52,597 nt of DNA, taken from assembly GCA_021201315.1 (NCBI GenBank), contig JAJQFG010000039.1:1-52597 (forward strand), read 5' to 3'. Positions 19,227 through 39,549 of this stretch are shown in pieces. The stretch comes from Erysipelotrichaceae bacterium (GTDB taxonomy: Bacteria > Bacillota_I > Bacilli_A > Erysipelotrichales > Coprobacillaceae). A program made the position numbers and the translations under genes. Positions within the stretch are counted from its first letter, which is position 1, and each line of letters starts with the position of its first letter. The notes below the pieces were generated by a model that did not search any database, was not told the DNA's origin, and saw only the letters and a list, made by a program, of their open reading frames with translations.

Positions 19227-21379
19227 AAAGGATATTTCTTTTGGCTATAGAATTTATAAATAATATGTTTCAATAAATTAACCAAAACTACTGATACAGC
19301 AAATATCGGAATAAGAATAATATAATTCCAATTGAGGAAAAAATTAATTCCAAAGAAATTTGGTATAACCAATAATATCAAAAAGAATAATATTGTTAAT
19401 ACAGCAGATACAAAAATTCTTATTCTATTAAAAGGTGAAAACACAATATATACAACTAAGAAACTAACAAAACCTGCTGTTAAATAGTAAAAAGTCGATA
19501 ATTGTGTGGTATCAAAATGCAAAATATTACCTAGAATATTAATAAATATCATATCTATAATGATGGTCAAAGCGCAAGGTAAAGCAGTTGTCATGATATG
19601 TTTAGAAAAGCCGCCAGTAGATAAGGTAGATGAACTTTCTAGAGCAACAAAGAAACTAGGAATACCTATAGCCAAAGAACTTATCAAACTTAATTGAATT
19701 GGTGTAAATGGATAGCTTTGGCGCATTGCAGCAAAGATGATACACAAACATGTAGAATAAATAGTTTTTGTAAGATATAAAGAACTAACTTTCTCAATGT
19801 TTGCGATAATAGTTCGTCCTTCTTTAACAATGGATTTCATAGAAGAAAAATTTGAATCCAGTAAAACAATATGGGCGGCTTGCTTTGCTGCATCGCTGCC
19901 AGCTGCCATAGCGATGCCACAATCCGCATCTTTTAATGCCAAAACATCATTAACGCCATCACCTACCATGCCAACAACATGATTATTATGCTGAAAAGCT
20001 TTAATGATACGCTGTTTTTGTTCTGGTTTAACACGTCCAAAAATATGATAATGATCAACAACTTTATATAATTCTTCATCATCTTCAGGTAGTGTAGAAG
20101 CATCAATATATTGATCTGCTTTTCTTAAACCTGCCAGTTGCGCAACACGTGAAACTGTAATAGGATTATCACCAGAAAGAATACAAACATCGACATTATT
20201 TTTATTAAAGAAACGTAAAGTTGATCTTGCATCATCTCTTAAACAATCATGAATAACAATTAAAGCCATTGGATGATTGATATCATCAATCGTTTCACCT
20301 AAAAATAAAACACGATAACCTTGATACGAATAAGAATTAACTCTATCTAAAACAATTTCATTATCAGTTAAAAACTCTGGTGCACCTAAAACAAAGGTAC
20401 GATGATCTTTTAATGTAATAGAACGCATCTTATTTTTAGATGAAAATGGTACTTTTTCAATAATATCAAAATCTTTAATTTTGTCAAATGCTTCACGTAA
20501 AGCTGATTGCGTAGCATTAACATCATCAAAATCATAAGCCATAGACCCTAATATTTCTTCTATAAAAGTATGAGTATATGGTTCATAAGGATAAACACGT
20601 TCAACAGCCAATTCGCCAGTTGTAATAGTACCTGTCTTATCCAAACATAAAACATCAACACGTGCCAAAGCTTCAATGGCTTCCATTTCCTGAACTAAGG
20701 CATTTTTTTGTGCCAATTTACCAACACCTAAAATAAATGATAAGCTCGTAAGAAGAACCAATCCTTCAGGAATCATACCAATAACTCCACCTACGGTTTT
20801 AACGATGGCCATACCTCTATCATTAGGATATGCGACCATTTGTGAAGCAAATAAAATAAAACCAACTGGAATAATAACAACACTTAAAACTTTAATCACT
20901 TTTTCAATAGAATCCTTCATTTGTGATGAAGCTTTATTTTTATGTTTAGCCTTTTGTACAAGCTTAGTTGAATAATTATCATTGCCAACTCTTATAACCT
21001 TACCATAGCCACTACCAGTTACAACAAAACTACCAGCTAATAATTCATCATTATATTGTTTTTTAATAGGTTCACTTTCACCAGTCAAAAGTGCTTCATT
21101 GATCTCCATACCTTGACTATCAATAACTTTACAATCACTACCAATTTGATTACCATTTTCTAAAAATACAACATCATCAATGACCAATTCCTCAACAGGA
21201 ATTGTTTTCATTTCCTGATTTCTTATAACTTTAACCTTAGCAACCGTAACAACACTTAATTTATCAATAACTTCTTTAACTTTAAATTCTTGTATAATTC
21301 CAATAATAGTATTACATAAAACAACAAATACAAAAGTTAAATTTGTAAAATGACCAGTAGAAATAATAATGGCAGCCAA
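19223..21379 (-). CDS. cation-transporting P-type ATPase, main part (frameshifted gene)
   Basis: This frame of 718 residues begins at a TTG within the second membrane segment and covers almost the whole transporter: the actuator TGES motif (EALLTGESEPIKK), the PEGL motif in membrane helix 4 (GMIPEGLVLLTS), the phosphorylation site DKTGTITTGE, the hinge GDGVNDVLALKDAD, and six C-terminal membrane helices. The PEGL motif and layout resemble mycobacterial CtpE (calcium uptake). The true N-terminus (about 53 residues) is in another frame at 21337-21534; restoring one base in a run of six T (minus strand, near 21375) joins FNGMNIF to LAAIIISTGHF in one protein of about 770 residues. As written it would be non-functional. 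Confidence 0.8.
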   Translation of the reverse strand: MAAIIISTGHFTNLTFVFVVLCNTIIGIIQEFKVKEVIDKLSVVTVAKVKVIRNQEMKTIPVEELVIDDVVFLENGNQIGSDCKVIDSQGMEINEALLTGESEPIKKQYNDELLAGSFVVTGSGYGKVIRVGNDNYSTKLVQKAKHKNKASSQMKDSIEKVIKVLSVVIIPVGFILFASQMVAYPNDRGMAIVKTVGGVIGMIPEGLVLLTSLSFILGVGKLAQKNALVQEMEAIEALARVDVLCLDKTGTITTGELAVERVYPYEPYTHTFIEEILGSMAYDFDDVNATQSALREAFDKIKDFDIIEKVPFSSKNKMRSITLKDHRTFVLGAPEFLTDNEIVLDRVNSYSYQGYRVLFLGETIDDINHPMALIVIHDCLRDDARSTLRFFNKNNVDVCILSGDNPITVSRVAQLAGLRKADQYIDASTLPEDDEELYKVVDHYHIFGRVKPEQKQRIIKAFQHNNHVVGMVGDGVNDVLALKDADCGIAMAAGSDAAKQAAHIVLLDSNFSSMKSIVKEGRTIIANIEKVSSLYLTKTIYSTCLCIIFAAMRQSYPFTPIQLSLISSLAIGIPSFFVALESSSTLSTGGFSKHIMTTALPCALTIIIDMIFINILGNILHFDTTQLSTFYYLTAGFVSFLVVYIVFSPFNRIRIFVSAVLTILFFLILLVIPNFFGINFFLNWNYIILIPIFAVSVVLVNLLKHIIYKFYSQKKYPF

Positions 21380-21534
21380 AAAATGTTCATACCATTGAAA
21401 TATGTTAAAGTATGTTCTTTAACAATCTGACCTTTAGTCTTTGAGATATTATCTTTAGATATATTAACTTGACCTTTTTCAATTCGTTCTTTCACTTGTT
21501 GATCATTTAAACCTTGATCCATTATCTTGTTCAT
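21337..21534 (-). CDS. N-terminal fragment of the P-type ATPase (frameshifted)
   Basis: The 65-residue frame has the normal P-type ATPase N-terminus: MDQGLNDQQVKERIEKGQVN, then KGQIVKEHTLTYFNGMNIF leading into membrane helix 1. After Phe52 the frame runs into unrelated hydrophobic codons and stops at 21337, while the expected continuation lies in the overlapping frame. An AGGTGAT site precedes the ATG at 21534, so this is the genuine start of the ATPase gene. Sequencing error in the homopolymer, transcriptional slippage and true inactivation are all possible. Confidence 0.7.
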   Translation of the reverse strand: MNKIMDQGLNDQQVKERIEKGQVNISKDNISKTKGQIVKEHTLTYFNGMNIFWLPLLFLLVILQI

Positions 21535-21619
21535 TCTATCACCTAATTAAAAGTATAACATAAAAGTAGAAATAAAAGATAAAAAAGATGATTTTTATGC
21601 AAAAAGATATTGAATAAAT

Positions 21620-21645
21620 AAAAAAACGTTGATACACAACGTTTT
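21620..21645 (-). terminator. intrinsic terminator after yloV
   Basis: Stem AAAACGTTG / CAACGTTTT with a 5-base loop and a run of seven T on the minus strand, just after the yloV stop at 21654. Confidence 0.8.
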
Positions 21646-21653
21646 CTAATAAA

Positions 21654-23315
21654 TTATTCAACACCAATAATAAATGAATATACAGGTTGTTTCCCATCCG
21701 TTACTTCTACTTCAGATTCAAAGTTTTCAGCAATATAATCTTCAGCCTCTTTAACTTCTTCTTGAGTAACATCTTCACCATAAATTAATGTTATAATTTC
21801 AGAATCTTCATCAACCAAACCATCTAAAGCCGCTTTCAAAGCATCTACTTTATTTGGAACACAAGCTTTTATTTCTTTTTCACATAAAGCCATATATTGA
21901 TTAGCTTTAATATCTAAGCCATCAATAACTGTATCTTTGATAGCAAAAGTTACTTGTCCTGTTTTAACGTTTTTAATAGCTTCATTCATTTCTTTAAGAT
22001 TATCCTCTAATGATACTTCAGGATTAAACATAATACATGCTGATAAACCTTGAGGTATAGACTTAGAAGGTATAACTTTCACATCAACTTCACCTTCTAA
22101 TATATCGACAGTTTGTTGAGCAGTCATCACAATATTAGAATTATTTGGTAAAACAATAACATGTTTTGCTTTCACATCTCTAATTGCCGCAACAATATCC
22201 TCTGTAGATGGATTCGTTGTTTGACCACCACTAACTACATAGTCACAATATAATTCCATAAACATATCTTTTACACCGTCACCAGCAGCCACAGAAATAA
22301 TAGCCACATCTTTTTCTTCTTCTTTAGGAGAAGTTAAAGTTGCTTTAGCCTTAGAAGCAGGTGTATCATTCATTTCAAGAATATGATTATGCTGTTCTTG
22401 CATATTTTCAATTTTTAATTTAATAAATTCACCATATCTTTGAGCAACATTTAGTGCATTTCCAGGTTTTAATGTATGCACATGCACTTTAACAATATCT
22501 TCATCCTGAACAACTACAATACTATTGCCAGGTAATCTTTCTAATTCATTACGAAGATTTTCTTCTTTAAATGCCTTAAGCTTATGAGGATCAATCCTAA
22601 AAATAAACTCTGTACAATAACCATAAGCATCTTCACTTTCATTTTCAACTTCAACCAATACTTCTTTCTTGCTTTCACCTTGGATATCTACACGATGAAT
22701 ACGTTCACCAGCTAGAGCAGCCATAAAACCTGTCATAATCAATAATAAACCAGCGCCACCACTATCAACAACGCCAACTTCTTTTAATACAGGCAATAAT
22801 TTAGGCGTATTGTCCAAAGATATTTCAGCTTGTTTAACAAAATAAGAAAATACATCTTCTATTTCCATATCTTCTTGTACATATTTTACTGTGGCATTAG
22901 ATGATTCTCTAATAACAGTTAAAATGGTTCCTTCAACTGGTCTCATAACAGCTTTATAAGCAACCTTGGCGCCATTTTTTAAAGCCTCTGCCAATTCAAC
23001 AGCATCAATTTCTCTTTTACCTTGAACGGCCATAGAAAACCCTCTAAATATCTGTGATAAAATAACCCCAGAATTTCCTCTAGCACCCATCAATAAACCT
23101 TTAGATAATGTTTTAGCAATTTCTCCAACATTATCAGATTCTAATTTTTCTACTTCTGAAGCACCATTGTTAAATGTCAAAGACATATTAGTTCCAGTAT
23201 CACCATCAGGTACCGGAAAAACATTTAGTGCATCAATTTCAAGATGATTATTATGAAGTACAGTAGCACCCGTTTCGATCATCTTTTTAAACATTTGACC
23301 ATCAATAACTTTCAT
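21654..23315 (-). CDS. fakA: DAK2-domain fatty acid kinase-type protein (YloV/FakA)
   Basis: The protein has 553 residues, matching the YloV/FakA length. The N-terminal DhaL/DAK2 kinase domain shows NVFPVPDGDTGTNM (metal and ATP binding, 31-44), ARGNSGVILSQIFRGF and GTILTVIRES; the C-terminal part has VSGGQTTNPSTEDI and VLPNNSNIV typical of the middle and C-terminal domains. FakA phosphorylates fatty acids bound to FakB (DegV-family) for entry into phospholipid synthesis. A DegV protein is encoded at 29.3 kb. It follows the Asp23 gene by 12 bases, the common Firmicutes yloU-yloV order. Confidence 0.9.
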   Translation of the reverse strand: MKVIDGQMFKKMIETGATVLHNNHLEIDALNVFPVPDGDTGTNMSLTFNNGASEVEKLESDNVGEIAKTLSKGLLMGARGNSGVILSQIFRGFSMAVQGKREIDAVELAEALKNGAKVAYKAVMRPVEGTILTVIRESSNATVKYVQEDMEIEDVFSYFVKQAEISLDNTPKLLPVLKEVGVVDSGGAGLLLIMTGFMAALAGERIHRVDIQGESKKEVLVEVENESEDAYGYCTEFIFRIDPHKLKAFKEENLRNELERLPGNSIVVVQDEDIVKVHVHTLKPGNALNVAQRYGEFIKLKIENMQEQHNHILEMNDTPASKAKATLTSPKEEEKDVAIISVAAGDGVKDMFMELYCDYVVSGGQTTNPSTEDIVAAIRDVKAKHVIVLPNNSNIVMTAQQTVDILEGEVDVKVIPSKSIPQGLSACIMFNPEVSLEDNLKEMNEAIKNVKTGQVTFAIKDTVIDGLDIKANQYMALCEKEIKACVPNKVDALKAALDGLVDEDSEIITLIYGEDVTQEEVKEAEDYIAENFESEVEVTDGKQPVYSFIIGVE

Positions 23316-23327
23316 ACTATACCTCCA

Positions 23328-23684
23328 CTAATCAATAACTCGAATGCCTTGTACATATACATTCACTGCTTCTATATCAACATCCAAAGTAGATTCAAGG
23401 ACATATTTTACCTTCTTTTGCACTTCATAAACAACCTCTGAAATCTTAACACCATATCCCACAATAATATAAACATTTAAGATGATACCAGTTTCACCAT
23501 CTTCTACAACAATCCCTTTTGAATAATTATCTCTTCCCAACAAATCATAAAAGCCATCTTTCATAATTTTCTGGCTAGCCATACCTACAACCCCATAACA
23601 TTCTGTAGCAGCTCCACCAGTAATACTAGCAACAACATCCAATGATAAATTAATATCTCCTAAATCAGTTGTTTTCTTAATCAT
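23328..23684 (-). CDS. Asp23/Gls24 family protein (YloU-like)
   Basis: The protein has 118 residues with the DUF322 signature: GDINLSLDVVASITGGAATECYG, then VGMASQKIMKD, a variable loop, the GIILNVYIIVGYGVKISEV strand-turn and a C-terminal NVYVQGIRVID. Family members are abundant cytosolic or membrane-associated proteins linked to cell envelope stress. The upstream position to fakA and the divergent rpmB is a conserved gene order in Firmicutes. Ribosome site GGAGG lies before the ATG. Confidence 0.9.
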   Translation of the reverse strand: MIKKTTDLGDINLSLDVVASITGGAATECYGVVGMASQKIMKDGFYDLLGRDNYSKGIVVEDGETGIILNVYIIVGYGVKISEVVYEVQKKVKYVLESTLDVDIEAVNVYVQGIRVID

Positions 23685-23955
23685 AATAAATTCCTCCGAT
23701 CAATACACATATATTATATTATAACTTATTTTTTTATTGTTGACAAATATTTCATAATAAATGCAATCGAATTATACCCTACTTCATAAAACTTGTAAAT
23801 GATATTACATAAAATTTATTGAAAATATCATCTATTTCATCCGTATTTTAGAATTGAATGTAATTTATTTTTATAAAAAATGATTGCAATTAATTGAATT
23901 TAATGCTATTATATCTAAGCATGTGAATATTGATTTTAAAAGGATGGTGAAAACA

Positions 23956-24141
23956 ATGTCAAGAAAATGTGAAATCAGTGGTAAAGGACCTATGTCTGGT
24001 AATACTCGTTCTCACGCATTAAATCACACTCGTAGAAAATGGAACGTAAACTTACAAAAAGCAACTATCTTAGTAAATGGTAAGCCTAAGAAAGTGAAAA
24101 TCTCTGCCAGAGAATTAAGAACGCTTAGAAAAAGTGTATAG
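23956..24141 (+). CDS. rpmB: 50S ribosomal protein L28
   Basis: The protein has 61 residues with the full L28 sequence landmarks: the N-terminal [31 protein letters not shown] and [14 protein letters not shown]. The ATG at 23956 is chosen because AAGGATGGTGA lies just upstream and L28 begins at this MSRK; longer in-frame extension is not coding. It binds 23S rRNA in the large subunit. It ends in an intrinsic terminator at 24153. The 271-base divergent gap upstream is AT-rich and holds a TTGACA (23740-23745) without a clear partner -10. Confidence 0.97.
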
Positions 24142-24152
24142 TTATAAAGATT

Positions 24153-24174
24153 GCATCTCTAAGATGCTTTTTTT
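24153..24174 (+). terminator. rpmB intrinsic terminator
   Basis: Stem GCATCT / AGATGC with a 3-base loop followed by seven T. Confidence 0.8.
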
Positions 24175-24177
24175 ATT

Positions 24178-25233
24178 TTATAAAAAAGCCATCATAAAAG
24201 CTGATAAAAAGAATATTGCTGCAACAACAATACAACAAGTAATCATAACACCTATATAATTTATAATTTTATTCTCATTTTTATGAAATATACAATAATT
24301 CCAAATACCCCTATAATTAAAAATAAAGGCAATAATACACAAACACATTATAAATAAAACAATTCTAAAAACACAATCCATCATATATGTCCAAGTTGGA
24401 TCTGTTGCTTCATAAGGATCACAAACAAAACACATATATAAAATCAAAACATAACCACTACCAGCTAGTATTTTAGTCAATAACTTACTATGATTTCTAA
24501 AGCCTGGCAAAGCCCAGGAAGTCTCATAATATAATTTATGATTCATTATTGCATCTTTTAAATCATCAACACTTTGATAACGATTATCTCTATCTAACTT
24601 AGTTGCTTTATCTATAATATCTTTTTCCCAGCCATCCCATCTTTCTGATACATAATCACTAGGAAACTTTCCTGTTAACATCACATTCCATAAAACACCA
24701 AGCGAAAAAATATCACTACGATTATCTGTTTGTTCAAAACCAAATTGTTCAGGTGCAGCGTAGCCATAACTACCTAATATTGTTGTATCTTTATTTTGAT
24801 GATCATCATAAATACGTGAAATATCAAAGTCAAATAATGTTACTTGCTTACCATCATAAAATATATTTTCGGGTTTAATATCTCGATGGATAATTTGATG
24901 TTGATGAAGTATTGATAATGTATCACATAATTGAATAATAATTTCATTACATTGATTTCTATCTAATTCATGATTAAGAATATACCAATCTAATGTTTGT
25001 TGATTGATATATTCTTCAATAATGATAGCTTTATTATCTTGTTGATATATATCAAAAATTTTAGGAATATGAGGTAAATCTAATGATTTTAACTTTTGAT
25101 AAACACTAATTTCTTTAATATGATAGATACGTTCAATATATAGTAATTGATCTATTTCATTTTTGACTAAATAAATAGATTTATTTTTATCCTCTTTCAG
25201 TATTTTAACTCTTTGATATAATTCAATACTCAC
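24178..25233 (-). CDS. membrane-anchored Hanks-type Ser/Thr protein kinase with altered ATP-lysine
   Basis: The protein has 351 residues from a GTG start at 25233 with GGGAG 8 bases upstream. The catalytic domain covers about 1-235: HRDIKPEN at 116-123, LFDFDIS (metal-binding Asp135; the usual DFG glycine is Asp137), GSYGYAAPEQ and SDIFSLGVLWNVMLTG. At the position of the ATP-anchoring lysine the sequence reads LLYIERI, giving Arg35. Three hydrophobic segments at about 255-345 anchor the C-terminus; there is no extracellular PASTA-like sensor. It is divergent from a small HTH-like gene, an arrangement I have seen in other gut Firmicutes; a partnership is inferred. Confidence 0.85.
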   Translation of the reverse strand: MSIELYQRVKILKEDKNKSIYLVKNEIDQLLYIERIYHIKEISVYQKLKSLDLPHIPKIFDIYQQDNKAIIIEEYINQQTLDWYILNHELDRNQCNEIIIQLCDTLSILHQHQIIHRDIKPENIFYDGKQVTLFDFDISRIYDDHQNKDTTILGSYGYAAPEQFGFEQTDNRSDIFSLGVLWNVMLTGKFPSDYVSERWDGWEKDIIDKATKLDRDNRYQSVDDLKDAIMNHKLYYETSWALPGFRNHSKLLTKILAGSGYVLILYMCFVCDPYEATDPTWTYMMDCVFRIVLFIMCLCIIAFIFNYRGIWNYCIFHKNENKIINYIGVMITCCIVVAAIFFLSAFMMAFL

Positions 25234-25294
25234 AATATTTTCTCCCTTGATTTTTCATTAATCCTATTATATCATAACTTTTAGGTGATAAAAC

Positions 25295-25705
25295 ATGACA
25301 ACAACAGAATTATTAAACATTTTAAATGACAATAAAGATATTTCTTTAACCGAATTATTAGAGAAAATACCTGATATCAACTTTGTAGATTATTTAGAAA
25401 TGTTACTGGAAACACATCATACAAGCAAAGCTCAAATCATTAAATTATCTACTTTAGATAGAACTTATGCTTATCAGATATTTGATGGAACTAAAAATCC
25501 CAGTCAAAATAAAGTTCTTATGATATCATTAGCTTTTCATTTAGATTTACATGATACAAATGTTTTATTGACACTTTCAAAAAATCAAACGCTTTATCCT
25601 AAAATAAAAAGAGATGCTTTAATTATATTTGCAATTAACCATCAATATGATGTTATTAAAACCAATGATTTATTACATGAATACAATTATGAAATATTAA
25701 ACTAA
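25295..25705 (+). CDS. small HTH (XRE-like) protein
   Basis: The protein has 136 residues. A central segment resembles an XRE-type helix-turn-helix (HTSKAQIIKLSTLDRTYAYQIFDGTKNPSQNKVLMISLAFHL read as helices around residues 45-85), followed by a helical tail. It is divergently transcribed from the kinase gene across a 61-base gap, and is followed 13 bases later by the HAD gene. It probably binds DNA or is a kinase-linked adaptor; a kinase substrate role is speculation. Confidence 0.6.
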   Translation: MTTTELLNILNDNKDISLTELLEKIPDINFVDYLEMLLETHHTSKAQIIKLSTLDRTYAYQIFDGTKNPSQNKVLMISLAFHLDLHDTNVLLTLSKNQTLYPKIKRDALIIFAINHQYDVIKTNDLLHEYNYEILN

Positions 25706-25718
25706 AGGAGAATATATA

Positions 25719-26489
25719 ATGATAAAAGCAATATTTTTTGATATAGATGGAACATTAGTAAGTTTCAATACTCATCATATACCTTCTTCTACTTTTGATG
25801 CTTTAAAGAAGCTTAAAGAAAATGATATTAAGATATTTATTGCGACTGGTAGAGGTAAAGATGGTTTATTTGTTTTAAATGACTTCGAATTTGATGGATA
25901 TATAACATTAAATGGTCAATATTGTTATACGAAGGATAAAATCATCTATGAAAATACAATTGACAAAAATGATTTAAAACATTTATTAGAGCACTTAGAA
26001 GAACATCCATTTCCTTGTGGATTTACAGAAGAAAATACAAAGTATTTTAATATGCGTGATGAACGTGTGGATGAGATACATAAAATTACACATAATGATA
26101 ATCATCCTGCTGGTGATTGTAGTCAAGTGATTCATCATAAAGTGTATCAATGTATGTGCTTTGTGAATGAAGATGAAGAAAAAGAATTATTGAAAGTTAT
26201 GCCTCATTGCATTGCTGCTAGATGGCATCCGCTATTTTGTGATATTTCCCCTATTGGTGGTACAAAACAAAATGGTATTGATCAATTTTTAAAATACTAT
26301 CATATTGATTTATCCCAAACCATGGCTTTTGGTGATGGTGGTAATGACAAGCAAATGTTAGAGCATGTTGCAATTAGTGTGGCTATGGGAAATGCTAATA
26401 AAGAATTAAAGCAAATAGCTGATTATATCACTGATGATGTAGATAATGATGGTATTGTCAAAGCTTTAAAACATTATCATCTTATATAA
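25719..26489 (+). CDS. Cof-type HAD-IIB phosphatase
   Basis: The protein has 256 residues: motif I FFDIDGTLVSFNT, motif II IATGRGKDG, C2B cap with FNMRDERVDEI, and motif IV MAFGDGGNDKQMLEHVAISVAMGNA, ending KQIADYITDDVDNDGIVKAL. It is a second Cof-type phosphatase in this window besides that at 16.9 kb; the two differ in the cap, so substrates probably differ. It is translated from a good AAAGGAG site and shares a transcript with the HTH gene. Substrate unknown. Confidence 0.88.
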   Translation: MIKAIFFDIDGTLVSFNTHHIPSSTFDALKKLKENDIKIFIATGRGKDGLFVLNDFEFDGYITLNGQYCYTKDKIIYENTIDKNDLKHLLEHLEEHPFPCGFTEENTKYFNMRDERVDEIHKITHNDNHPAGDCSQVIHHKVYQCMCFVNEDEEKELLKVMPHCIAARWHPLFCDISPIGGTKQNGIDQFLKYYHIDLSQTMAFGDGGNDKQMLEHVAISVAMGNANKELKQIADYITDDVDNDGIVKALKHYHLI

Positions 26490-26518
26490 AAACCATGTAT
26501 TTTTTGATACATGGTTTT
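26488..26518. terminator. hairpin terminator between HAD and MORN genes
   Basis: Stem AAAACCATGTAT / ATACATGGTTTT with loop TTTTTG, and T-rich flanks on both strands; it separates converging genes. Confidence 0.8.
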
Positions 26519-26542
26519 TAAAATTCATATAATTATTGTCAT

Positions 26543-28135
26543 TTAATTTTTTTTCACCAATTGATTATTTTGCCATTCGCCTCTATAAATTTCACCACTA
26601 CTATCAATCCAAATACCTTTACCATGTTTTTGATGATTCTGCCAATGACCTATATAAACATTACCTAAATGATCATAATAAAAACCAAAGCCGTCAAAAA
26701 CATTATTCATCCAATCACCATAATATATATCACCATTATTAAATCTTATTAATCCCTTTCCATTAATACAATGATTTTTCATATTTCCATAATAAATAGC
26801 ACCATTATCATATTTTTGATAATGATTTTTTGTATTAACCGTCTTAATCTTATTGACAAGTTGACCAAGATGATACTGGCACTCATAAACATCATTTTCA
26901 CAATACAATAATACATGGCCATCTTTATAATCATCTTTCCAGTTTCCTGCATAAACATCACCATTAAAATGCATCTCTACAGCTTGACCATTGCGTCGAT
27001 TATTTTGCCACTCTCCTAAATAAATACAATCATCTAAAATCATAATACCCTCACCATTCATTAAACCATTTAACCAATGTCCATATAATAGCCATCCTTG
27101 AGGATATTGTAATAATCCTAAACCATTTCTCTGATTATCCTTAAAATCACCAATATAAGTATAACCATTATTTTCATAAAAAACACCAAAACCATCTTTA
27201 ACATTATTTTTCCATTCACCATTATAAACATCACTAGTATGAAATATCATTGTACCATAACCATACATTTGATTATTTATCCATTCTCCTTGATAAATGT
27301 CACCATTATCATATTTTATCAACCCATTACCTTCACAATGATTGTCAACAAAATCACCTATGTAAATTGTACCACTATCATATTGTTTATATTTAAAGCC
27401 ATTAAAAGCAGTATCTTTTCTACCTTTAATAATATCTTTTTGAGTTATATGATTCGTTTTATTGATAAAATTTTGAGCATTATTATCAATCATATTCGTC
27501 CATCCAATACAATAAGCTGTCAAAGAATCAATAACATAATCATCGCCAAAATTCATGATACTATTTTCTAAATATTTTTTAGCATTTTCACAAACTTGAT
27601 CTGGATAGTAATAATCACTTGCCCCAAATAGATGACATGATTCATGAGCAATACCTTTTATTTTTTGTTTATCTGTATCATTTGCTTGAAAAAATATGAT
27701 GGCATATTCATATTTTATATCACTATTTCTTTCAACATTATGAGCATTAGAACGACCGTTTTTATTGAATAAAAATAAGATAGGAACTTCATCACAAGAT
27801 AATTTTTGTTTAAGTGTCGATTGAATGGTATCAATAGATTCATGCCATACATTCATCACAACATCTCTATCCCACTTATGTGCATTGTTATATTCAACAG
27901 AAATAGGAATATAAGTCCGATAACTATATTTTTTAAATTCTAGTGAAATATGATACTTTTTACTTTGTTGTAAGAAAAACTCAACAACACCTTGATATAT
28001 TAGATTAAAATACCTAATATCTTCTTCATACCATTGACTATCGGCATCATCGACAAAAACAATCATATAATTAATTTTTCCTACTAATTTTTGACATATA
28101 CCTGCATTTTTTGCATTTAAAAATTGATTATTCAT
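26543..28135 (-). CDS. metzincin-like metalloprotease domain fused to MORN repeats
   Basis: From the ATG at 28135 (GGAG 8 bases upstream; an in-frame ATG 14 codons earlier lacks a site) the protein has 530 residues. Residues 1-215 resemble a zinc metallopeptidase: IAHESCHLFGASDYY gives the metzincin pattern HExxHxxGxxD (His164, Glu165, His168, Asp174), and SIMNFG (Met194) fits the Met-turn. Asp as third ligand is known in snapalysin. Residues 250-530 hold about 12 MORN repeats (GxxYxGxWxNNxxxGxG), the eighth degenerate. There is no signal peptide, so it may act inside the cell or leave by another route. MORN repeats bind lipids or proteins. The substrate is unknown. Confidence 0.8.
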   Translation of the reverse strand: MNNQFLNAKNAGICQKLVGKINYMIVFVDDADSQWYEEDIRYFNLIYQGVVEFFLQQSKKYHISLEFKKYSYRTYIPISVEYNNAHKWDRDVVMNVWHESIDTIQSTLKQKLSCDEVPILFLFNKNGRSNAHNVERNSDIKYEYAIIFFQANDTDKQKIKGIAHESCHLFGASDYYYPDQVCENAKKYLENSIMNFGDDYVIDSLTAYCIGWTNMIDNNAQNFINKTNHITQKDIIKGRKDTAFNGFKYKQYDSGTIYIGDFVDNHCEGNGLIKYDNGDIYQGEWINNQMYGYGTMIFHTSDVYNGEWKNNVKDGFGVFYENNGYTYIGDFKDNQRNGLGLLQYPQGWLLYGHWLNGLMNGEGIMILDDCIYLGEWQNNRRNGQAVEMHFNGDVYAGNWKDDYKDGHVLLYCENDVYECQYHLGQLVNKIKTVNTKNHYQKYDNGAIYYGNMKNHCINGKGLIRFNNGDIYYGDWMNNVFDGFGFYYDHLGNVYIGHWQNHQKHGKGIWIDSSGEIYRGEWQNNQLVKKN

Positions 28136-28255
28136 GATATTTCTCCATCCAAGTATTATTGTATCAAAATTAATCATAATTTCCTAGTCGTTACCTTGTA
28201 TGATTTTATCAATTTTTGTATAATTGTTAGTAAAGATAACATAAAGGAGAATATT

Positions 28256-29302
28256 ATGGGAAAATTTTGGAAAATATTCATTACTTTAACAATGATGATA
28301 TGCTTATGTGCTTGTAGCAGTCAAAAAGATGAAGAAAGCAATGATGAAATTGATGAAGTTGTAGAAACAAATGAAGAAGAAATAGAAGAAGGTGTTTCAA
28401 CAAGCATAACTTTAACTTTTGTGGGTGATATTACGTTAGGAAATTATGTGGGACAAGGCTATGATGGTTCATTTAATCAAAAGTATCAAAGTGTGAATGC
28501 GTCTTATTTTTTAGAAAATGTTCAAGATGTTTTTGCGACAGGTAATTTGACGATTGCTAATTTAGAAGGCCCTTTAACAGATGCTAGTGATTATCAGATT
28601 AAAACTTTTGCCTTTAGTGGTTTGCCTGAATATAGAGAAATACTTAAAGAAGGTAATATTGATGTTGTCACTTTAGCAAACAATCATTCTCAAGATTATT
28701 ACGATGAAGGTATGGCCGATACAAAAGAGAATTTAGAGGCTGTTGATATTAATTATTTTGGTTATGAAACTACATGTATTGAAGAGGTTAATGGTATTAA
28801 GATTGGTTTTATTGGTTTGTCTTTTCCTCAAGAATATGGTGATTTAACAAAAAGTTTAATTGCCCAGCTAGAAGATGAAACTGATTTAATTGTGATATAT
28901 GTTCATTGGGGTATTGAAAGAGATGAAGCACCTCAAGCAACCCAAATTGAATTAGCCCATACCTGGATAGATAATGGTGTTGATTTAGTTATTGGTTCAC
29001 ATCCTCATGTTGTTCAAGGAATTGAAACATATAATGGTAAGACAATTGTTTATAGTTTAGGTAATTTCTATTTTGGAGGTAATAAAAATCCGACAGATAA
29101 AGATTCTATGATATATCAACATACCTTTACTTTTACTAATGGTGAAGTTACTGATGAAGAATCTAATGTTACTGCTTGTTCTATATCATCTAGTAGTTCT
29201 TCTAATAATTATCAACCGACAGTTTTAACTGGTAGTGAAAAAACACGTGTTGAAACCAAGATAGAAGAACGTAGTGAATTAATTAAAAACATGGTAAATT
29301 AA
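28256..29302 (+). CDS. CapA-family lipoprotein metallophosphatase
   Basis: The protein has 348 residues from the ATG at 28256 with AAAGGAGA upstream; the 44-codon in-frame extension overlaps the divergent promoter region and lacks a site. A lipoprotein signal MGKFWKIFITLTMMICLCAC places the lipid cysteine in LCAC, followed by an acidic linker. The CapA/PGA_cap fold motifs are FVGDITLGN, NLEGPLTD, LANNHSQDYYDEGM, VHWGIERDE, GSHPHVVQGIE and YSLGNFYFGG. Relatives take part in poly-gamma-glutamate capsule anchoring, but no capB/capC genes are nearby, so a phosphatase or wall-polymer role is equally likely. Confidence 0.9.
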   Translation: MGKFWKIFITLTMMICLCACSSQKDEESNDEIDEVVETNEEEIEEGVSTSITLTFVGDITLGNYVGQGYDGSFNQKYQSVNASYFLENVQDVFATGNLTIANLEGPLTDASDYQIKTFAFSGLPEYREILKEGNIDVVTLANNHSQDYYDEGMADTKENLEAVDINYFGYETTCIEEVNGIKIGFIGLSFPQEYGDLTKSLIAQLEDETDLIVIYVHWGIERDEAPQATQIELAHTWIDNGVDLVIGSHPHVVQGIETYNGKTIVYSLGNFYFGGNKNPTDKDSMIYQHTFTFTNGEVTDEESNVTACSISSSSSSNNYQPTVLTGSEKTRVETKIEERSELIKNMVN

Positions 29303-29330
29303 AAATAAGGATCATCAGATCCTTATTTTT
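29301..29330. terminator. bidirectional terminator between capA-like and degV genes
   Basis: Perfect stem AAAATAAGGATC / GATCCTTATTTT with loop ATCA and T/A runs both sides; lies between convergent genes. Confidence 0.85.
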
Positions 29331-30192
29331 AGTCATCTATAAATTGCACACCAGCACCTAACAGACCTGGGCCTAAATAACAACTTAACGCTGCTCCTAT
29401 TTTTGATTCATAACAAACAATATAATCAGGATATTTTTCTAATAATTCAGCTTCCAATTTATTCCTAGCTTCTCTATTTGCACCATCTGCAACCATTAAT
29501 TTAAATTTTTTTCCAGGATTATCTTCAATAATTTGAGATACCAATTCAATGAGCTTACCAGGCACTTTCTTATTACCCCTTACCTTAGCAGGTACTTCAA
29601 TATCACCATTTTCTTTACCAATAGACATAATAGGTTTTAATTTTAGAGTATTTCCTAAAAAAGCTTCGGCTTTTCCTATTCTTCCACCTTTTTGTAAAAA
29701 TTCTAAAGTATCAATTGAAAAGAAAACTGTTGTATTTTCGATTAACTTTTCTGCTTTAACTTTTAATTCATCAAATGATAATCCATTATTTCGATATTCA
29801 GCTAAGCTTATCGCAATTGATTCATTACCTACAGCAGCACTCTTAGAATCATACACTTCTATTTCTATATTTTCCATTTCAGAAGCAAGTAAACGTACTT
29901 GATTGACAGTTCCTGATAAACCACTTGATAACATTGTCGCAATAGCATGTGTATATCCCTCTTCTACCAATTGCTCAAATAAATGAATAATATCACCACC
30001 TGCAGGTGATGCTGTTTTTAATACTTGAGTTTTTTGCATCTCATACACATCTTCTACTTGTATGGTAATACCATCTTGATATTCTTTACTACCACATTGA
30101 ACAACTATTGGTAATACAAAAATACCATACTCTTCCATTTCTTCTTTTGTTAAATCACTACATGTATCCGTAATAATCGCTATTTTTTCCAT
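29329..30192 (-). CDS. DegV family fatty-acid-binding protein (FakB-like)
   Basis: The protein has 287 residues from the ATG at 30192, preferred over an ATG 5 codons upstream because GGGAGAAG sits 5-8 bases before it. DegV landmarks: IITDTCSDLTKEE, the TASPAGGDI loop, ATMLSSGLSGTVNQ, FSIDTLEFLQKGGRIGKAEAFLG and LKPIMSI. DegV/FakB proteins hold a fatty acid for phosphorylation by FakA; the FakA homologue lies at 21.7-23.3 kb. Chain-length preference cannot be read from sequence. Confidence 0.92.
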   Translation of the reverse strand: MEKIAIITDTCSDLTKEEMEEYGIFVLPIVVQCGSKEYQDGITIQVEDVYEMQKTQVLKTASPAGGDIIHLFEQLVEEGYTHAIATMLSSGLSGTVNQVRLLASEMENIEIEVYDSKSAAVGNESIAISLAEYRNNGLSFDELKVKAEKLIENTTVFFSIDTLEFLQKGGRIGKAEAFLGNTLKLKPIMSIGKENGDIEVPAKVRGNKKVPGKLIELVSQIIEDNPGKKFKLMVADGANREARNKLEAELLEKYPDYIVCYESKIGAALSCYLGPGLLGAGVQFIDD

Positions 30193-30309
30193 AATCTTCT
30201 CCCTCATTCCATCCCATAATTTAACATACTTTTATATACTGAATTTGAACTTTTCTTAAAGTAGAAAAGTTCATGATTTTTCTTTCATTCAAATTCAACA
30301 AAAATGGTA

Positions 30310-30337
30310 TTGTTTTATCAAATAATTTTAATATAAT
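30310..30337 (+). promoter_or_regulatory. promoter of the MFS gene
   Basis: TTGTTT at 30310-30315, a 16-base spacer and TATAAT at 30332-30337, about 20 bases before the MFS start codon. Confidence 0.55.
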
Positions 30338-30357
30338 TGAATTATAAGGAGGAAAAA

Positions 30358-31497
30358 ATGAATAATTCAAAATTAAAAATAACAATATTATTACTATCAT
30401 TATTACAAATGGGTTCTATCTTTATGTCTCCTATTATTGGCGATTTAGTAGCAGAATTTTCAATGTATAGTGCAAGCACTTGTCAAATGTTGATGACTTT
30501 TCCTAATTTGGTTGTTGTAATAATGTCTTTAGTAACAGGAAAATTAGATTCTTGTATTTCACGTAAGAACTTAGGTATTATTGCTTGTATATGCGTGTTA
30601 TGTGGAGCTTTAGGATTATTTACATTCCATACCAGTTTAATAGTTATGTATGTTTTTGCAGGCATATTTGGTATTGGAATTGGTATTATTTTACCTTTGA
30701 CTGCAACTTTGATTTCTGTTTATTTTACCGAGGATCAACAAGGTCAGGTTTATGGATTACAGAATTCTTTTGCTAATTTAGGTGGTGTTGCACTTAATTT
30801 ATTAGGTGGTACGCTTGCAGGAATTGCATGGTATTTTGATTTTCTTGCACCATTGATTATTATTCCTGGATTCATTATGGTATTTATGAGTGTTCCTAAT
30901 GAAAAAGGTATCAAAGCAAACGAATCAAAAGAAAAAGCTAAAATACCTAGTGTAGTTTATTTATATGTTGTTATAGCTGCAATATTTGGTATTATCTTTA
31001 ATACTATGCCTACTAATATTTCAATCTTTGTTTCAGAAAATAGTTTAGGCGGTAGTTCTTTTAGTAGTATTGTAACGGCTGTATTTTTATGTGGTGGTGC
31101 TTTAGCTGGTATGTTTTTCAATCAACTTAATAAAAGATTTGGTGAAGTTGTAATAGCGATTGCTTTTTTAAATTTAGGTTTAGGTTTACTTATTTGTTCA
31201 CAAGCAACGATTGCTCCATTATTATTAGCAGGTGCATTTATTGGTGGTTGTAGTATGTCATTATTTATGTCTAGAGTAACTTTAAGCATTAGTGCTAAAA
31301 CCAATCCAGTAGTCACTCCAATGGCTTTATCACTTGTATTATCAAGTAATAACTTAGGTAACTTTATTTCACCTACTGTAATAGGATTACTTCCTGGCAC
31401 ATTGGTTTCTCAAAGATTCCTGATTGTAGGTGTAATTGCACTCATAGGTGCAGTCATAGTTGGATACTTAATGAAACAACAAAACAAAATAGCATAA
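30358..31497 (+). CDS. MFS transporter, 12 membrane segments
   Basis: The protein has 379 residues from the ATG at 30358 with AAGGAGG upstream. It shows the MFS layout with about 12 hydrophobic helices and the loop 2-3 charged motif GKLDSCISRKNLG, and a long G-rich helix GIFGIGIGIILPLTATL in the N-half. No close family signature (sugar, drug, siderophore) is visible. It has its own promoter and a strong terminator, so is probably monocistronic. Substrate unknown. Confidence 0.85.
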   Translation: MNNSKLKITILLLSLLQMGSIFMSPIIGDLVAEFSMYSASTCQMLMTFPNLVVVIMSLVTGKLDSCISRKNLGIIACICVLCGALGLFTFHTSLIVMYVFAGIFGIGIGIILPLTATLISVYFTEDQQGQVYGLQNSFANLGGVALNLLGGTLAGIAWYFDFLAPLIIIPGFIMVFMSVPNEKGIKANESKEKAKIPSVVYLYVVIAAIFGIIFNTMPTNISIFVSENSLGGSSFSSIVTAVFLCGGALAGMFFNQLNKRFGEVVIAIAFLNLGLGLLICSQATIAPLLLAGAFIGGCSMSLFMSRVTLSISAKTNPVVTPMALSLVLSSNNLGNFISPTVIGLLPGTLVSQRFLIVGVIALIGAVIVGYLMKQQNKIA

Positions 31498-31500
31498 AGA

Positions 31501-33040: not shown

Positions 33041-33067
33041 AGTAAAAAAGAGACTAGTTGTCTCTTT
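33041..33067 (-). terminator. terminator of the SWIM operon
   Basis: Stem AAAGAGAC / GTCTCTTT with a 5-base loop and a T run on the minus strand, overlapping the stop of the last SWIM gene. Confidence 0.75.
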
Positions 33068-34697
33068 AAAGTTTTCGTAATTCATCCATTAAAGCACGTC
33101 TATTTTTATATTTCACTTTCCAAACATCAACAATCTCATTTACAACTATGTCTCCACCTTGAATTTGTTTCATCATTCTTAAATAATTCACCCATTCATG
33201 ATAAACTGATCGACTTGCTGTATGTCTTGCTTCTCTATTAAGTTCACTTTGATATTTATCTAATAGTTGTTTTGGATAGATATCTTTTAAATCATCTAAA
33301 TATTTAGTTACTATATATAATCCTCGACCATTTAGTGCATAATCTAATAATTTATCATACATTTTTTCTTCCTTATATAAATCATAAAGATTTTTAGGTG
33401 ATTTATTAAAAATTTTATCTCTTATAGTAATCCATTCTTCATTAGAATATAATGATTTTAATTCCCTATAATAGTCCAAATCAACTCTTGTATTATCAGT
33501 TATTATTATATATAACTGCTTTTTATATTGTTCTGTGTTACCTGTTAATATATATAATTCTATTAATTGTTTACGATAATCATCAACAAGTCCAGGTCTA
33601 TCGGCATCCAAATCAATAGATTCTAACAATATATCAATAGCTTTATCATATTCCTGATTATCAATATATATAGAAACATACATTTTTCTTATGAAAGTAT
33701 AATTCCAATATTTTTCACAAAACTTATCAATATCTTCATCAGGATAATTTAATTCCATCATAATTTGAATACGATATTTTAACCATTCTTGAATATTTGA
33801 ACGAACATACCATGGTTGTTTCATATCTGTAGATTGTTTGATTTTATCATCCACAAAAGATAATTTTTCTTTTAAATATTTTTCATCTTTAAATCGTTTC
33901 ATAAAAATATCTTTTATATAATCATCTAAATAATCGGAATGATTATCTAAATGACTGACAAACCATTGAAACATTTTATCAGTGGTACTATTATCACATT
34001 GATTAAGTATTTCATTCCATATATTAATACATTTACAAACTATACTCCCACTATCTCCACCAGAATCATCCATATCCACATCACAAACTTGCAAAAATAG
34101 ATAAACTGATACATCAAATGCTTCATCATAGCACTTTGAATTAATCATCATTTTAACATCTTCATTCAAAAATTTTTCCATATCAATCGCAAAATTTGTA
34201 GCTTCTAAATAATCTATATAATGATAACGATCCATATGAGATTGAATAATATGATCTACTTGATTTTTATATTCTTGTATATCATCTTTTGTTATTTCAT
34301 TATTTACAAAGGTTTTAAATTTGAGTGCTAAATTATTATCGTTATCTAATACATATAATAAAAAATCTCTTATTTGTGAATTTGTAGCTTGATCAATAAT
34401 ATTCTTGTTGTTTATTGATTCATTATTTGTCTTATTGTCTTGCATATGTTGTAAATAACTTTCCCATTGATATAATACAGCAGCCATATGTTTACAATTG
34501 TTGCCATATGAACAATTACAAGACATATGACTAACATGGTTGTCATGCAACGTTATTTTTACTTGATAATCTTTGCTACCAACTACTTTAGCTGTTATCA
34601 AATCATCCGAAACACTAAAATCCTTAACATGTCCATTAATATAATAATCAAATCCTCTATTCAATATTTCACTCCAAAATTCATCTTCCCAATCCAT
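33066..34697 (-). CDS. SWIM zinc-finger protein, full-length paralogue 5
   Basis: The protein has 543 residues. It starts with the array's shared motif MDWEDEFWSEILNRGFDYY, followed by the SWIM finger CxC-x5-CxH (Cys60, Cys62, Cys68, His70). A mid domain carries DNDNNLALKFKT and DMDDSGG, and the helical C-terminus ends WKVKYKNRRALMDELRKL. The whole protein is predicted helical after the finger with TPR-like pairs. SWIM domains bind DNA or proteins; no catalytic domain is visible. It is the last gene of the array, 9 bases after paralogue 4, with GTAGGAGTG upstream. Confidence 0.85.
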   Translation of the reverse strand: MDWEDEFWSEILNRGFDYYINGHVKDFSVSDDLITAKVVGSKDYQVKITLHDNHVSHMSCNCSYGNNCKHMAAVLYQWESYLQHMQDNKTNNESINNKNIIDQATNSQIRDFLLYVLDNDNNLALKFKTFVNNEITKDDIQEYKNQVDHIIQSHMDRYHYIDYLEATNFAIDMEKFLNEDVKMMINSKCYDEAFDVSVYLFLQVCDVDMDDSGGDSGSIVCKCINIWNEILNQCDNSTTDKMFQWFVSHLDNHSDYLDDYIKDIFMKRFKDEKYLKEKLSFVDDKIKQSTDMKQPWYVRSNIQEWLKYRIQIMMELNYPDEDIDKFCEKYWNYTFIRKMYVSIYIDNQEYDKAIDILLESIDLDADRPGLVDDYRKQLIELYILTGNTEQYKKQLYIIITDNTRVDLDYYRELKSLYSNEEWITIRDKIFNKSPKNLYDLYKEEKMYDKLLDYALNGRGLYIVTKYLDDLKDIYPKQLLDKYQSELNREARHTASRSVYHEWVNYLRMMKQIQGGDIVVNEIVDVWKVKYKNRRALMDELRKL

Positions 34698-34706
34698 ATT
34701 TCACTC

Positions 34707-36341
34707 CTACAATTTACCTAATTCATCCATCATTGCTGGCCTATTTTTATATCTTACTTTCCAATCATCTGCTATTTGTTGTGCAACTTTCTCTCCACCA
34801 TCTATTTTTTTCATTCTTCTTAGATATTGAACCCATTGACGATATCTATCTCTTGAGGCACTATAATAAGCCATCTCATTCAATTCTTTTGTATACTTTT
34901 CTAATAATTCTTTTGAATACTTATCTTTTAATACATCTTCATATTTAAAAACCATATCTAATCCTTCATCATTTAACACAATATCTAATAAACGATTATA
35001 TAATTTTTCTTCCTTATATAACTTATCAATATGACAATCATCAGATAATATCATAAATATATCTTCTCTTACTTCTAACCATTCTTTTTCATCATATAAT
35101 GCTTTTAACTCTTTAAAATCATCAACATCACCAGGATTATTGATTGTTACAAGTAACATCAACTGTTTTTTGTATTCTTCATTATTTCCTATTATATGAT
35201 AAATATCTTTGAGTTGATGTCGATAATCAGTAACATATAGATTACTTTTAGATATTTCAATACTTTGATTTAAAGCTGCAATAGCTTTATTATATTGTTT
35301 TAGATCTATACAATAGGAGATATATAATTGAGATATTTTAGTATCTTTATAATGTTCTAAATAGTATTGTTCAATTTCCTCTTTTGAAGTATTCAATTCA
35401 ATCATGACTTTATAATAATCACTACTCCATTTAGAATATATATAATCATAATATCCAAATTCTTCTATACGAAAAGCGTTTTCCATTTCTTGTTTGGTGA
35501 AATCTAACTTTTGATGAAGATATTTATCTTCTTTAAAATGATCCATTAAAAATTCTTCAAGATAATCTTCTAAATATTCAAAGTTACAATCCTCTAAGTA
35601 ATCAATAAACCATTGAAACATTTTATCCTTAGATGTTTCATCCATCATCTCAAGAATATCATCCCAAATAGATACACAAGTCATCACAAATGTTGTTTTT
35701 TCACCACCCGAATCATCCATATCTAAATCATTAATGGTTTCAAAAGCATATGTATATAAATCAAAAGCATCATAGTAACACTTAGATTGCTTAAATAAAT
35801 CAATAGTTTCTTTTAAATATTTAATAACATCATTCATAAAATCAAAAGCATGGTAATAATCAATCATTCCATAATCCATATAAGAATCCCTTATATCATC
35901 AATTTTTTTCTTATAGTCTCGCATATCATTATTCGATACTTTGTTATTAACCATGGTTTTAAATTTCAATGCTAGATTATTATCATTATCAAATAAATCT
36001 AAAAGGAAATCCTTTATTTGTTTCTCTGTTGCTTGATTAAGTGCTTCTTCAATAGTTATATCATCATCTTCAATCATATAATCATCACGACATTCATCCC
36101 ACTCAAAAAGCACAGCTGCCATATGTTTACAATGGTTTCCTTTAGTAGCGTACGGACAAGTACAAAACATATCAATAATATGATTTTTATTATATTTGAT
36201 TTTTACATCATAATTTGTATTACCTATGACGGTCGCACTTACCCATTTATTTGTTACACGAAAATCTTTTACACGATTACTTATATAATAATCATGACCT
36301 CTTCCTAAAACAAGATCTCTAAATTTATTTTCCCAATCCAT
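34707..36341 (-). CDS. SWIM zinc-finger protein, full-length paralogue 4
   Basis: The protein has 544 residues, colinear with its neighbour throughout: MDWENKFRDLVLGRGHDYY, SWIM ligands Cys60, Cys62, Cys71 and His73, then LNQATEKQIKDFLLDLFDN, DMDDSGG and the terminal WKVRYKNRPAMMDELGKL. The insertion between the second and third ligand is two residues longer (x8) than in paralogue 5. The start codon lies within the last 17 bases of paralogue 3, with AAGGAG just upstream, indicating coupling. Function unknown; diverged duplicates suggest relaxed or divergent selection. Confidence 0.85.
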   Translation of the reverse strand: MDWENKFRDLVLGRGHDYYISNRVKDFRVTNKWVSATVIGNTNYDVKIKYNKNHIIDMFCTCPYATKGNHCKHMAAVLFEWDECRDDYMIEDDDITIEEALNQATEKQIKDFLLDLFDNDNNLALKFKTMVNNKVSNNDMRDYKKKIDDIRDSYMDYGMIDYYHAFDFMNDVIKYLKETIDLFKQSKCYYDAFDLYTYAFETINDLDMDDSGGEKTTFVMTCVSIWDDILEMMDETSKDKMFQWFIDYLEDCNFEYLEDYLEEFLMDHFKEDKYLHQKLDFTKQEMENAFRIEEFGYYDYIYSKWSSDYYKVMIELNTSKEEIEQYYLEHYKDTKISQLYISYCIDLKQYNKAIAALNQSIEISKSNLYVTDYRHQLKDIYHIIGNNEEYKKQLMLLVTINNPGDVDDFKELKALYDEKEWLEVREDIFMILSDDCHIDKLYKEEKLYNRLLDIVLNDEGLDMVFKYEDVLKDKYSKELLEKYTKELNEMAYYSASRDRYRQWVQYLRRMKKIDGGEKVAQQIADDWKVRYKNRPAMMDELGKL

Positions 36342-37539
36342 ATAATACTCCTTGTAATTGATTTAATTCTTCTAATAAAGCATATCTATTCTTATATCTT
36401 ACTTTCCAATCATTAATAAGTTCAAAAACTGCAATGGAACCACCTCTAATTTGTAACATTCTTTTCATAATATCAATTAAATTACGATAATCTCTTCTAC
36501 TCCTGCATGATTGAACCATAACATTCAATTCTCTTGTATATTTACGTAATAATTGTTTTGGATATTTATCTTTTAAATCTTCTTCATAGTTTTCTAATGC
36601 AACTAATCCTTCCCTATCAATAACATATTTTAATAATCGATCATATAAACCTTCTTCCTTATACACTACAGCAATATAATCACTATCCGATAATTCTAAA
36701 AATATATCTTCTCGTATTTCATTCCACGCTTCTTGTGTATATAATGATTTTAATTCTCTATAATCATCTAAATTATTAGGATTAAATTTTATCAACAACT
36801 TAAGCTGTTGCTTATATTCTTCAATACTTCCTAATAATTGATAAATATCTTTTAATTGATGATGATAACTTGCAACTAGCTTTTGATTATACTTATCTAA
36901 TTTAATGGAATGATTAAGAGCAACAATAGCTTCATTATAATTGTTCTGTTTTAAAGATAAATCAATATATGCTTGACGCATCGAATGATATTTCCAATTT
37001 CCTTTACAATATTTCATGAGCTTGTCATCGGAATATCCTAAATCATACATAACTTGAAGATGATAAGATAACCACTTTGATTTTTGAGAATCATTATGTC
37101 TTATAAAATTAACTTTTTGTTGAGTAAACTTGAGTTTTTCTTTTAAATAGTTTCTTTCTTTAAAGTGCTCCATGAAAAATGATACCAATATTTCATCAAC
37201 AAAATCATTACTACATTTATCTACAAACCATGCAAATATCTTATCACTTACTTCTTTATCACAAATATTAATAATTGTATTCCAATTATCCAAACATATT
37301 TGTGATAACATTGGTATATCTTCAGCATCTTCAATATCAATATAATTTATTTTAAATAGTATATAAGAAGATAATTTAAAAGCATTATAATATTGTTTTA
37401 AATCTATCATTTCTTGGATATTTTCTGTTAGAACCTCTTTAATATCAGAAACAAAGGAGTCAACAAATTCATAAGGAATATAATAATCATAATTCATATA
37501 AGTATCAATAATACTATCAACATAATCTTTATTATTCAT
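36325..37539 (-). CDS. SWIM-less C-terminal paralogue 3
   Basis: The protein has about 404 residues from the ATG at 37539 (GAGG 5 bases upstream; the ATG at 37563 would overlap the previous gene and has no site). It aligns with residues ~150-540 of the full paralogues: HLKERNYLKEKLKFTQQK, LDDYRELKSLYTQEAWNEIREDIF and WKVRYKNRYALLEELNQL. It has no zinc finger. Its N-terminal ~100 residues duplicate a section that also ends the 201-residue gene upstream, so the two are not just a gene cut in half by one frameshift. Confidence 0.75.
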   Translation of the reverse strand: MNNKDYVDSIIDTYMNYDYYIPYEFVDSFVSDIKEVLTENIQEMIDLKQYYNAFKLSSYILFKINYIDIEDAEDIPMLSQICLDNWNTIINICDKEVSDKIFAWFVDKCSNDFVDEILVSFFMEHFKERNYLKEKLKFTQQKVNFIRHNDSQKSKWLSYHLQVMYDLGYSDDKLMKYCKGNWKYHSMRQAYIDLSLKQNNYNEAIVALNHSIKLDKYNQKLVASYHHQLKDIYQLLGSIEEYKQQLKLLIKFNPNNLDDYRELKSLYTQEAWNEIREDIFLELSDSDYIAVVYKEEGLYDRLLKYVIDREGLVALENYEEDLKDKYPKQLLRKYTRELNVMVQSCRSRRDYRNLIDIMKRMLQIRGGSIAVFELINDWKVRYKNRYALLEELNQLQGVLYGLGK

Positions 37540-37546
37540 AATAACC

Positions 37547-38152
37547 TCAATAAAAATACTCATTCAATAATCTTTGAATCTCTTCACTCAAATAAGTGTA
37601 TGATCTTTCAGCACATTCTTCCATCCATAAATTCATCTCATTCATAAGAGGATCATCTGCATAAATAATGATTTCTTCAAATATTTGAATACATTCATTT
37701 ACTATTTCTTCATTATCTACTTTATCTAATATATAAGCGGTTAATTCAAAAGCATCTAAATAATTATCATGATTCATCAAATCATTAACATCCTCATATA
37801 TAATATTTTGTATTTTTTCAATGAAATTTTTAGTTTTATTACAACAACATTGATCAACTTTCCTTTTATAAGTACTAAGCTTACTTATGTTTGTTGGTAT
37901 ACCTCCATAATGTTCATCTAAATAATGCATAACTGCAGCTATATGTTTACACTTTTCTCCATAATAACAATTACATTCCATATCTACTATATGATTATTA
38001 CTTATATGTATTTCCACATCATATTTATGTGCTCCAAGGACTTGTGCATTTACAACTTCACCATTTATTTGAAAGTTTCTTACACGTTTCTCCATATAAT
38101 AACCATAACCCCTATTGACAACATCTTCATCAAATAAATCTTCCCAGTTCAT
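37547..38152 (-). CDS. short SWIM zinc-finger protein, paralogue 2
   Basis: The protein has 201 residues: MNWEDLFDEDVVNRGYGYYMEK, SWIM ligands Cys60, Cys62, Cys68 and His70, an unusual KRKVDQCCCNKTKNF with three adjacent cysteines, then a partial helical region (YLDAFELTAYILDKV) ending at LLNEYFY. The long C-terminal part of the full proteins is missing. It follows the first gene by 9 bases and is 7 bases before the next preferred start, so it should be cotranslated with a SWIM-less partner. Either a truncated remnant or a separate DNA/protein-binding subunit. Confidence 0.8.
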   Translation of the reverse strand: MNWEDLFDEDVVNRGYGYYMEKRVRNFQINGEVVNAQVLGAHKYDVEIHISNNHIVDMECNCYYGEKCKHIAAVMHYLDEHYGGIPTNISKLSTYKRKVDQCCCNKTKNFIEKIQNIIYEDVNDLMNHDNYLDAFELTAYILDKVDNEEIVNECIQIFEEIIIYADDPLMNEMNLWMEECAERSYTYLSEEIQRLLNEYFY

Positions 38153-38161
38153 ATTATTTTC

Positions 38162-39532: not shown

Positions 39533-39549
39533 ATTCATCACCTATCCAT

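Follow-up and report, generated by a model that had tools for sequence, protein, structure and literature searches.

The window, i.e. the whole stretch of 52,597 nt analysed here, contains at 26543-28135 on the minus strand an ORF of 530 amino acids in which a metzincin-type protease domain (residues 1-214) is followed by a C-terminal array of MORN repeats. The coordinates, the start and the description of the ORF given in the original prediction are borne out. There is an alternative in-frame ATG at 28177, upstream of the ATG at 28135. The latter is the better start, because a GGAGA box precedes it (TGGAGAAATATC-ATG) and it lines up in the alignment with the start of the homologue in Massilimicrobiota timonensis An13 (genome G003). 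Among the window ORFs of at least 100 residues, HExxHxxGxx[HD] is found in this one only, and its conservation across the 63-row alignment described below rules out a motif that arose by chance. The features of the locus are:

26533 to 28150, unstranded: segment missing from two sister species (blastn of window 21000-31500 against L159 and L161; ORFs)
26546 to 27371, minus strand: MORN repeat array, about residues 255-530 (Pfam, register search, Foldseek)
27372 to 27493, minus strand: linker with two short helices, about residues 215-255 (secondary structure of the model, alignment A5)
27494 to 28135, minus strand: metzincin-type catalytic domain, residues 1-214 (AlphaFold, matches to solved structures, 63-row alignment)
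27551 to 27562, minus strand: Met-turn region SIMN, residues 192-195 (sequence position; M194 invariant)
27614 to 27646, minus strand: zinc-binding motif HESCHLFGASD, residues 164-174 (motif position, invariance, metzincin consensus; PMC12237041)
28140 to 28147, minus strand: likely ribosome-binding site GGAGA (sequence; upstream of ATG 28135)

Homologues were collected stepwise by profile searches, first those of G003 and G015 (same family of genomes) and then four further ones from the order. An alignment-based scan of genome_contigs gave 135 confirmed relatives, while a peptide-pattern scan of the same contigs with the single sequence gave none; 80 relatives were kept and 63 rows make up alignment A3. 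Although the other rows are only 18-35% identical to the window protein, H164, E165, H168, F170, G171, D174 and M194 are invariant, and W35, E143, A163, L167, A172, Y176 and G211 are conserved in at least 90% of the rows. HESCHLFGASD together with SIM had been read as a metzincin signature with Asp as the third zinc ligand, and the invariance of HExxHxFGxxD and of the methionine in all 63 rows upholds this reading. In the metzincin consensus Asp is rare at this position, with snapalysins and thuringilysins as known examples, and several metzincins have a 'tyrosine switch', a tyrosine that follows closely on the third ligand (PMC12237041). By analogy, H164, H168 and D174 are the predicted zinc ligands and E165 the predicted general base, and Y176, two residues after the last ligand, is the presumed tyrosine switch.

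Residues 1-214 were modelled by AlphaFold on alignment A3 with a pLDDT of 92.5 and a pTM of 0.91. In a fold search with this model the best 50 PDB entries by Z are all metzincins. The top match is ADAM17/TACE (Z 12.3, rmsd 3.9 Å, 173 residues aligned, over residues 18-214), and snake-venom adamalysins, other ADAMs and ADAMTS are also found among the best 50. The fold of residues 1-215 had been set beforehand as the test, and its outcome is a metzincin fold. Such a fold match implies that the motif residues are clustered in space. The HExxHxxGxxH/D motif, a downstream Met-turn methionine and the catalytic-domain fold, on which assignment to metzincin clan MA(M) is based, are thus all present. 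A match to M10, M12 or snapalysin folds had been named as support; among the listed folds the adamalysin type is the closest, while the resemblance to snapalysin is one of sequence and is confined to the motif. In a sequence search against the PDB snapalysin is the only metzincin neighbour, with the motif alone aligned and E about 1. Note that structures of snapalysin (M7) and of the M64 igalysins are absent among the listed fold matches, an absence that does not amount to exclusion.

No curated Pfam or NCBIfam model scores above its cut-off for the catalytic domain. Reprolysin_4 (Pfam M12B) reaches 14.3 bits against a cut-off of 22, so that the score of the adamalysin/reprolysin model lies below its threshold. 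Matches of residues ~21-75 to transthyretin/hydroxyisourate hydrolase (Pfam Transthyretin, NCBIfam) are also below cut-off and occur in one member only; we attribute them to chance.

The C-terminal half is clearly recognised as MORN. PF02493 matches with E 1.3e-26 and 91.3 bits (cut-off 22.5), and eight stretches are significant singly. A simple register search finds ten clear repeats starting at residues 258, 281, 304, 327, 372, 395, 448, 471, 494 and 517, the spacing being mostly 23 residues and the last repeat being cut off by the C-terminus of the protein. A weak repeat at 350 can be added, and residues around 418-447 form a degenerate stretch, so the earlier count of about 12 repeats was a fair one. 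In the structure model matching strand pairs run to the C-terminus, and Foldseek matches the array to Toxoplasma gondii MORN1 with E 1e-22. The linker is partly conserved among the three MORN-bearing members of the family (alignment A5). A search of the window genome found no other MORN protein.

The wider family to which the catalytic domain belongs has the signature HE[ILM]LHLFGAxD[LFY]Y and is homologous to the window protein over the whole domain. It is found in Bacillota, Bacteroidota, Spirochaetota and Planctomycetota. Its members match Reprolysin_5, M6 and related models of Pfam and NCBIfam only weakly; TIGR03296, the NCBIfam M6 domain, is matched weakly by 37 of the 63 members (best E 7e-6), the window protein itself not being among them. 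According to a crude test, a hydrophobic stretch lies ahead of the domain in 69 of 80 loci, and 26 of those 69 have a lipobox-like motif. The members therefore appear to be mostly secreted or lipoprotein-like, and they lack MORN repeats save for one clade of three. A tblastn search of plasmids revealed no relatives, and viral contigs contained two of the secreted type only. Weak matches in the phylum search were for the most part M6-like proteins with a signal and the motif HExGHLxGLxDYY, in which no clear MORN array is seen. The analysis has also uncovered, in gut Bacillota and Bacteroidota, a broad group of secreted metzincins for which no curated model exists. In one locus (L012:2-748) a protein that looks FHA-like by eye is encoded directly upstream of a membrane-anchored family member.

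Among the family members found, MORN fusions occur in three species only: the window protein, a Lachnospiraceae MAG protein of 366 aa (L044; 67.6 bits to MORN) and the M. timonensis An13 protein of 347 aa (L005/L052), in which the repeats are visible at 14.4 bits, below the Pfam cut-off. The number of repeats varies among the three. In the neighbourhood of the Lachnospiraceae genome 397 genomes were sampled; 18 have a match and MORN is present in that genome's own protein only. None of the three MORN members has a signal peptide, and there is no hydrophobic stretch upstream of their domain. For the window protein this agrees with the original prediction, which had reported no secretion signal: neither a signal peptide nor a hydrophobic N-terminus is seen.

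In the tree a single clade (99/85) unites the three MORN members; it is nested in a clade of ten (97/87) together with seven members that lack MORN. The open frames of these seven start with signal-like or hydrophobic N-termini. The simplest and most likely history is a single fusion accompanied by loss of the signal; the direction from a secreted to a MORN-bearing form is suggested by the rarity of the fusion, not by the root of the tree. The window protein is about 30% identical to its homologue in G003, as compared to 81% for a housekeeping-type DAK protein (window 21654-23315) in the same two genomes. This difference is consistent with horizontal movement or with fast evolution of the MORN-metzincin.

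Two sister species (G021 and G022) share the gene order of the flanks, with 82-85% DNA identity and with genes for an L28-like protein, a kinase, a 136-aa protein and a HAD phosphatase on one side and for a PGA_cap protein and DegV on the other, and the MORN-metzincin gene is absent. Since the neighbours are conserved without it, the gene is a single-gene accessory element. It has probably moved horizontally and stands alone, outside any conserved operon with its neighbours. A functional tie to the neighbouring Ser/Thr kinase was considered and rejected, as the kinase is conserved in the sister species that lack the MORN-metzincin. At the corresponding site the sisters have an unrelated ORF of 103-115 aa with no Pfam match (L159:5395-5706, L161:3493-3840), and G022 has a glycoside-hydrolase-like gene between PGA_cap and DegV. 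The site may be a spot where small accessory genes are exchanged.

Our best explanation, to which we give about an even chance of being correct, is that an accessory stand-alone gene here encodes a zinc endopeptidase which is active in the cytosol and is docked to a partner or a substrate by its MORN array. Within a mostly secreted metzincin family, one lineage would most likely have shed its export signal and acquired MORN repeats at the C-terminus. The zinc ion would be coordinated by H164, H168 and D174 and the water activated by E165, while Y176 and M194 would play the supporting parts usual in metzincins. The long MORN sheet would act as an arm for docking: by binding a partner protein, or less probably a membrane lipid, it would direct the protease to a specific substrate inside the cell. 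Retained activity is suggested by the invariance of all catalytic residues across the diverse 63-row alignment, and a cytosolic location by the absence of a signal. Docking to protein is preferred over lipid because the well-studied MORN1 of T. brucei, a eukaryotic protein, does not bind membranes (PMC7725318). Since the number of repeats is variable and those of G003 are weak (14.4 bits), a conserved specific docking surface is only putative. Computation establishes the fold, the conservation of the motif, the fusion, the lack of a signal peptide, the single clade and the accessory nature of the gene; zinc binding, activity, residence in the cytosol, the docking role and the target are predictions. 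Most characterised metzincins act outside the cell or on its surface. If signal loss and the gain of a docking array are true, we have here a rare case of the metzincin fold turned inward, and a testable example, small and confined to one gene, of the use that bacteria make of MORN repeats, about which little is known so far.

The protein shares with ADAM17, adamalysins and ADAMTS the fold over residues 18-214, HExxHxxGxx[H/D] and the Met-turn. It differs from them in sequence (about 10% identity), in having Asp instead of His as the third ligand, in the lack of a signal peptide and the presence of a MORN array, and its scores do not reach the cut-offs of the Pfam M12B (Reprolysin) models. With snapalysin (M7) and thuringilysin (M6) it has the Asp ligand in common (PMC12237041), but both of these are secreted enzymes that lack MORN repeats. 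On the side of the repeats, MORN1 of Apicomplexa and trypanosomes and the junctophilins resemble the array in their MORN sheet fold (E 1e-22 to 1e-14), but these are eukaryotic proteins without a protease domain. A bacterial protease fused to MORN had been called unusual. This is only partly so, as bacterial MORN-metacaspase fusions were tabulated already in 2016 (PMC4933709). They likewise join a protease to MORN repeats in bacteria, but the protease is a cysteine protease of another fold and the repeats, one to four in number, are N-terminal (PMC4933709). MORN and metzincin together were not found in the literature searched, most subscription journals being outside its scope, nor as a Pfam or NCBIfam family. 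While MORN-protease fusions as such are on record, the MORN-metzincin appears to be unreported so far.

A link of the MORN-metzincin to NTPase conflict systems is a rather unlikely alternative, suggested by two related loci. In G003 the gene is separated by 110 bp from a preceding run of same-strand genes for DO-GTPase1, GAP1-M, a HerA-like protein, a nuclease, a YezG-like protein and a transglutaminase; the run also holds zinc-ribbon/FNIII-like and DnaK-like genes and fits the GTPase-centric conflict system described by Kaur et al. 2020 (PMC7159879). In the second locus (L163), the top match lacking MORN among the genomes sampled around the Lachnospiraceae genome adjoins a TIR-AAA NTPase and a second signal-less protein, with the motif HEFGHVLGLGD. 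The accessory nature and patchy distribution of the MORN-metzincin gene would agree with such a link, and the window genome carries two GAP1/DO-GTPase loci of its own. However, contig C121 carries the window gene, whereas GAP1-M and DO-GTPase1 are matched on C132 and C83, in loci without the protease; the transglutaminase has remained in the GTPase locus of this genome and the protease has not. The window gene sits among genus-conserved genes that occur without it, the Lachnospiraceae member has no conflict-system neighbours, and PADLOC-DB gives no match for any of the three MORN members. Only the G003 homologue adjoins a GTPase-system cluster; the window gene is not part of one. We therefore treat the conflict-system link as a lead that the window locus itself does not show.

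Several details of these loci are worth recording. The stretch of about 21-42 kb on G003:C48 (L052, L125, L128) looks like a complete GTPase-centric conflict locus, with two GTPase genes, GAP1-M, a zinc-ribbon/FNIII-like gene, two DnaK-like genes and a HerA-like ATPase, after which come the nuclease, the YezG-like immunity protein, the transglutaminase and the MORN-metzincin. The GAP1/DO-GTPase loci of the window genome are L139 (G000:C132) and L140 (G000:C83), and C132, with its transglutaminase, resembles that of G003. The HEFGHVLGLGD protein (L163:2614-3687, plus strand) has no signal and by eye has Sel1-like N-terminal residues, so it is possibly another repeat-protease fusion; opposite to it, near the TIR-AAA NTPase, a membrane-anchored relative of the metzincin family is encoded (L163:1-957, minus strand). 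A broader and speculative picture, which we hold to be doubtful, is that of a repeat-guided intracellular metzincin with a signalling or suicide role in bacterial conflict. Such a protease would be the metalloprotease counterpart of the MORN-metacaspases; it would have arisen once, from secreted metzincins of the gut, and spread between gut bacteria of the Erysipelotrichales and Lachnospiraceae types.

It is quite improbable that the protein, released through lysis or exported without a signal, works outside the cell as its secreted relatives do. Most relatives do have signal-like or lipobox-like stretches, but all three MORN members are without a signal, and MORN proteins with solved structures are intracellular. 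We give little credence to autoinhibition, in which the MORN array would block the protease until a ligand binds and so replace the propeptide of a secreted enzyme: a cytosolic protease would need control and the window protein seems to have no propeptide-sized stretch before the domain, but we obtained no structural sign of the array covering the cleft. Very unlikely is a scaffold protein whose metzincin domain binds without catalysing. Some conflict systems do often contain inactive peptidase domains (PMC7159879), but here no catalytic residue varies in any of the 63 rows, those of the three MORN members included.

Two other repeat regions were noticed in the window. At 33066-39541 (minus strand) there is a tandem array of five related ORFs in varied truncation that looks like local duplication; three of the five match the SWIM zinc finger with scores that lie close to the Pfam cut-off or exceed it. 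The gene at 974-3970 (minus strand) codes for a protein of 998 aa in which 20 Sel1 repeats are significant, and a shorter paralogue adjoins it at 368-973.
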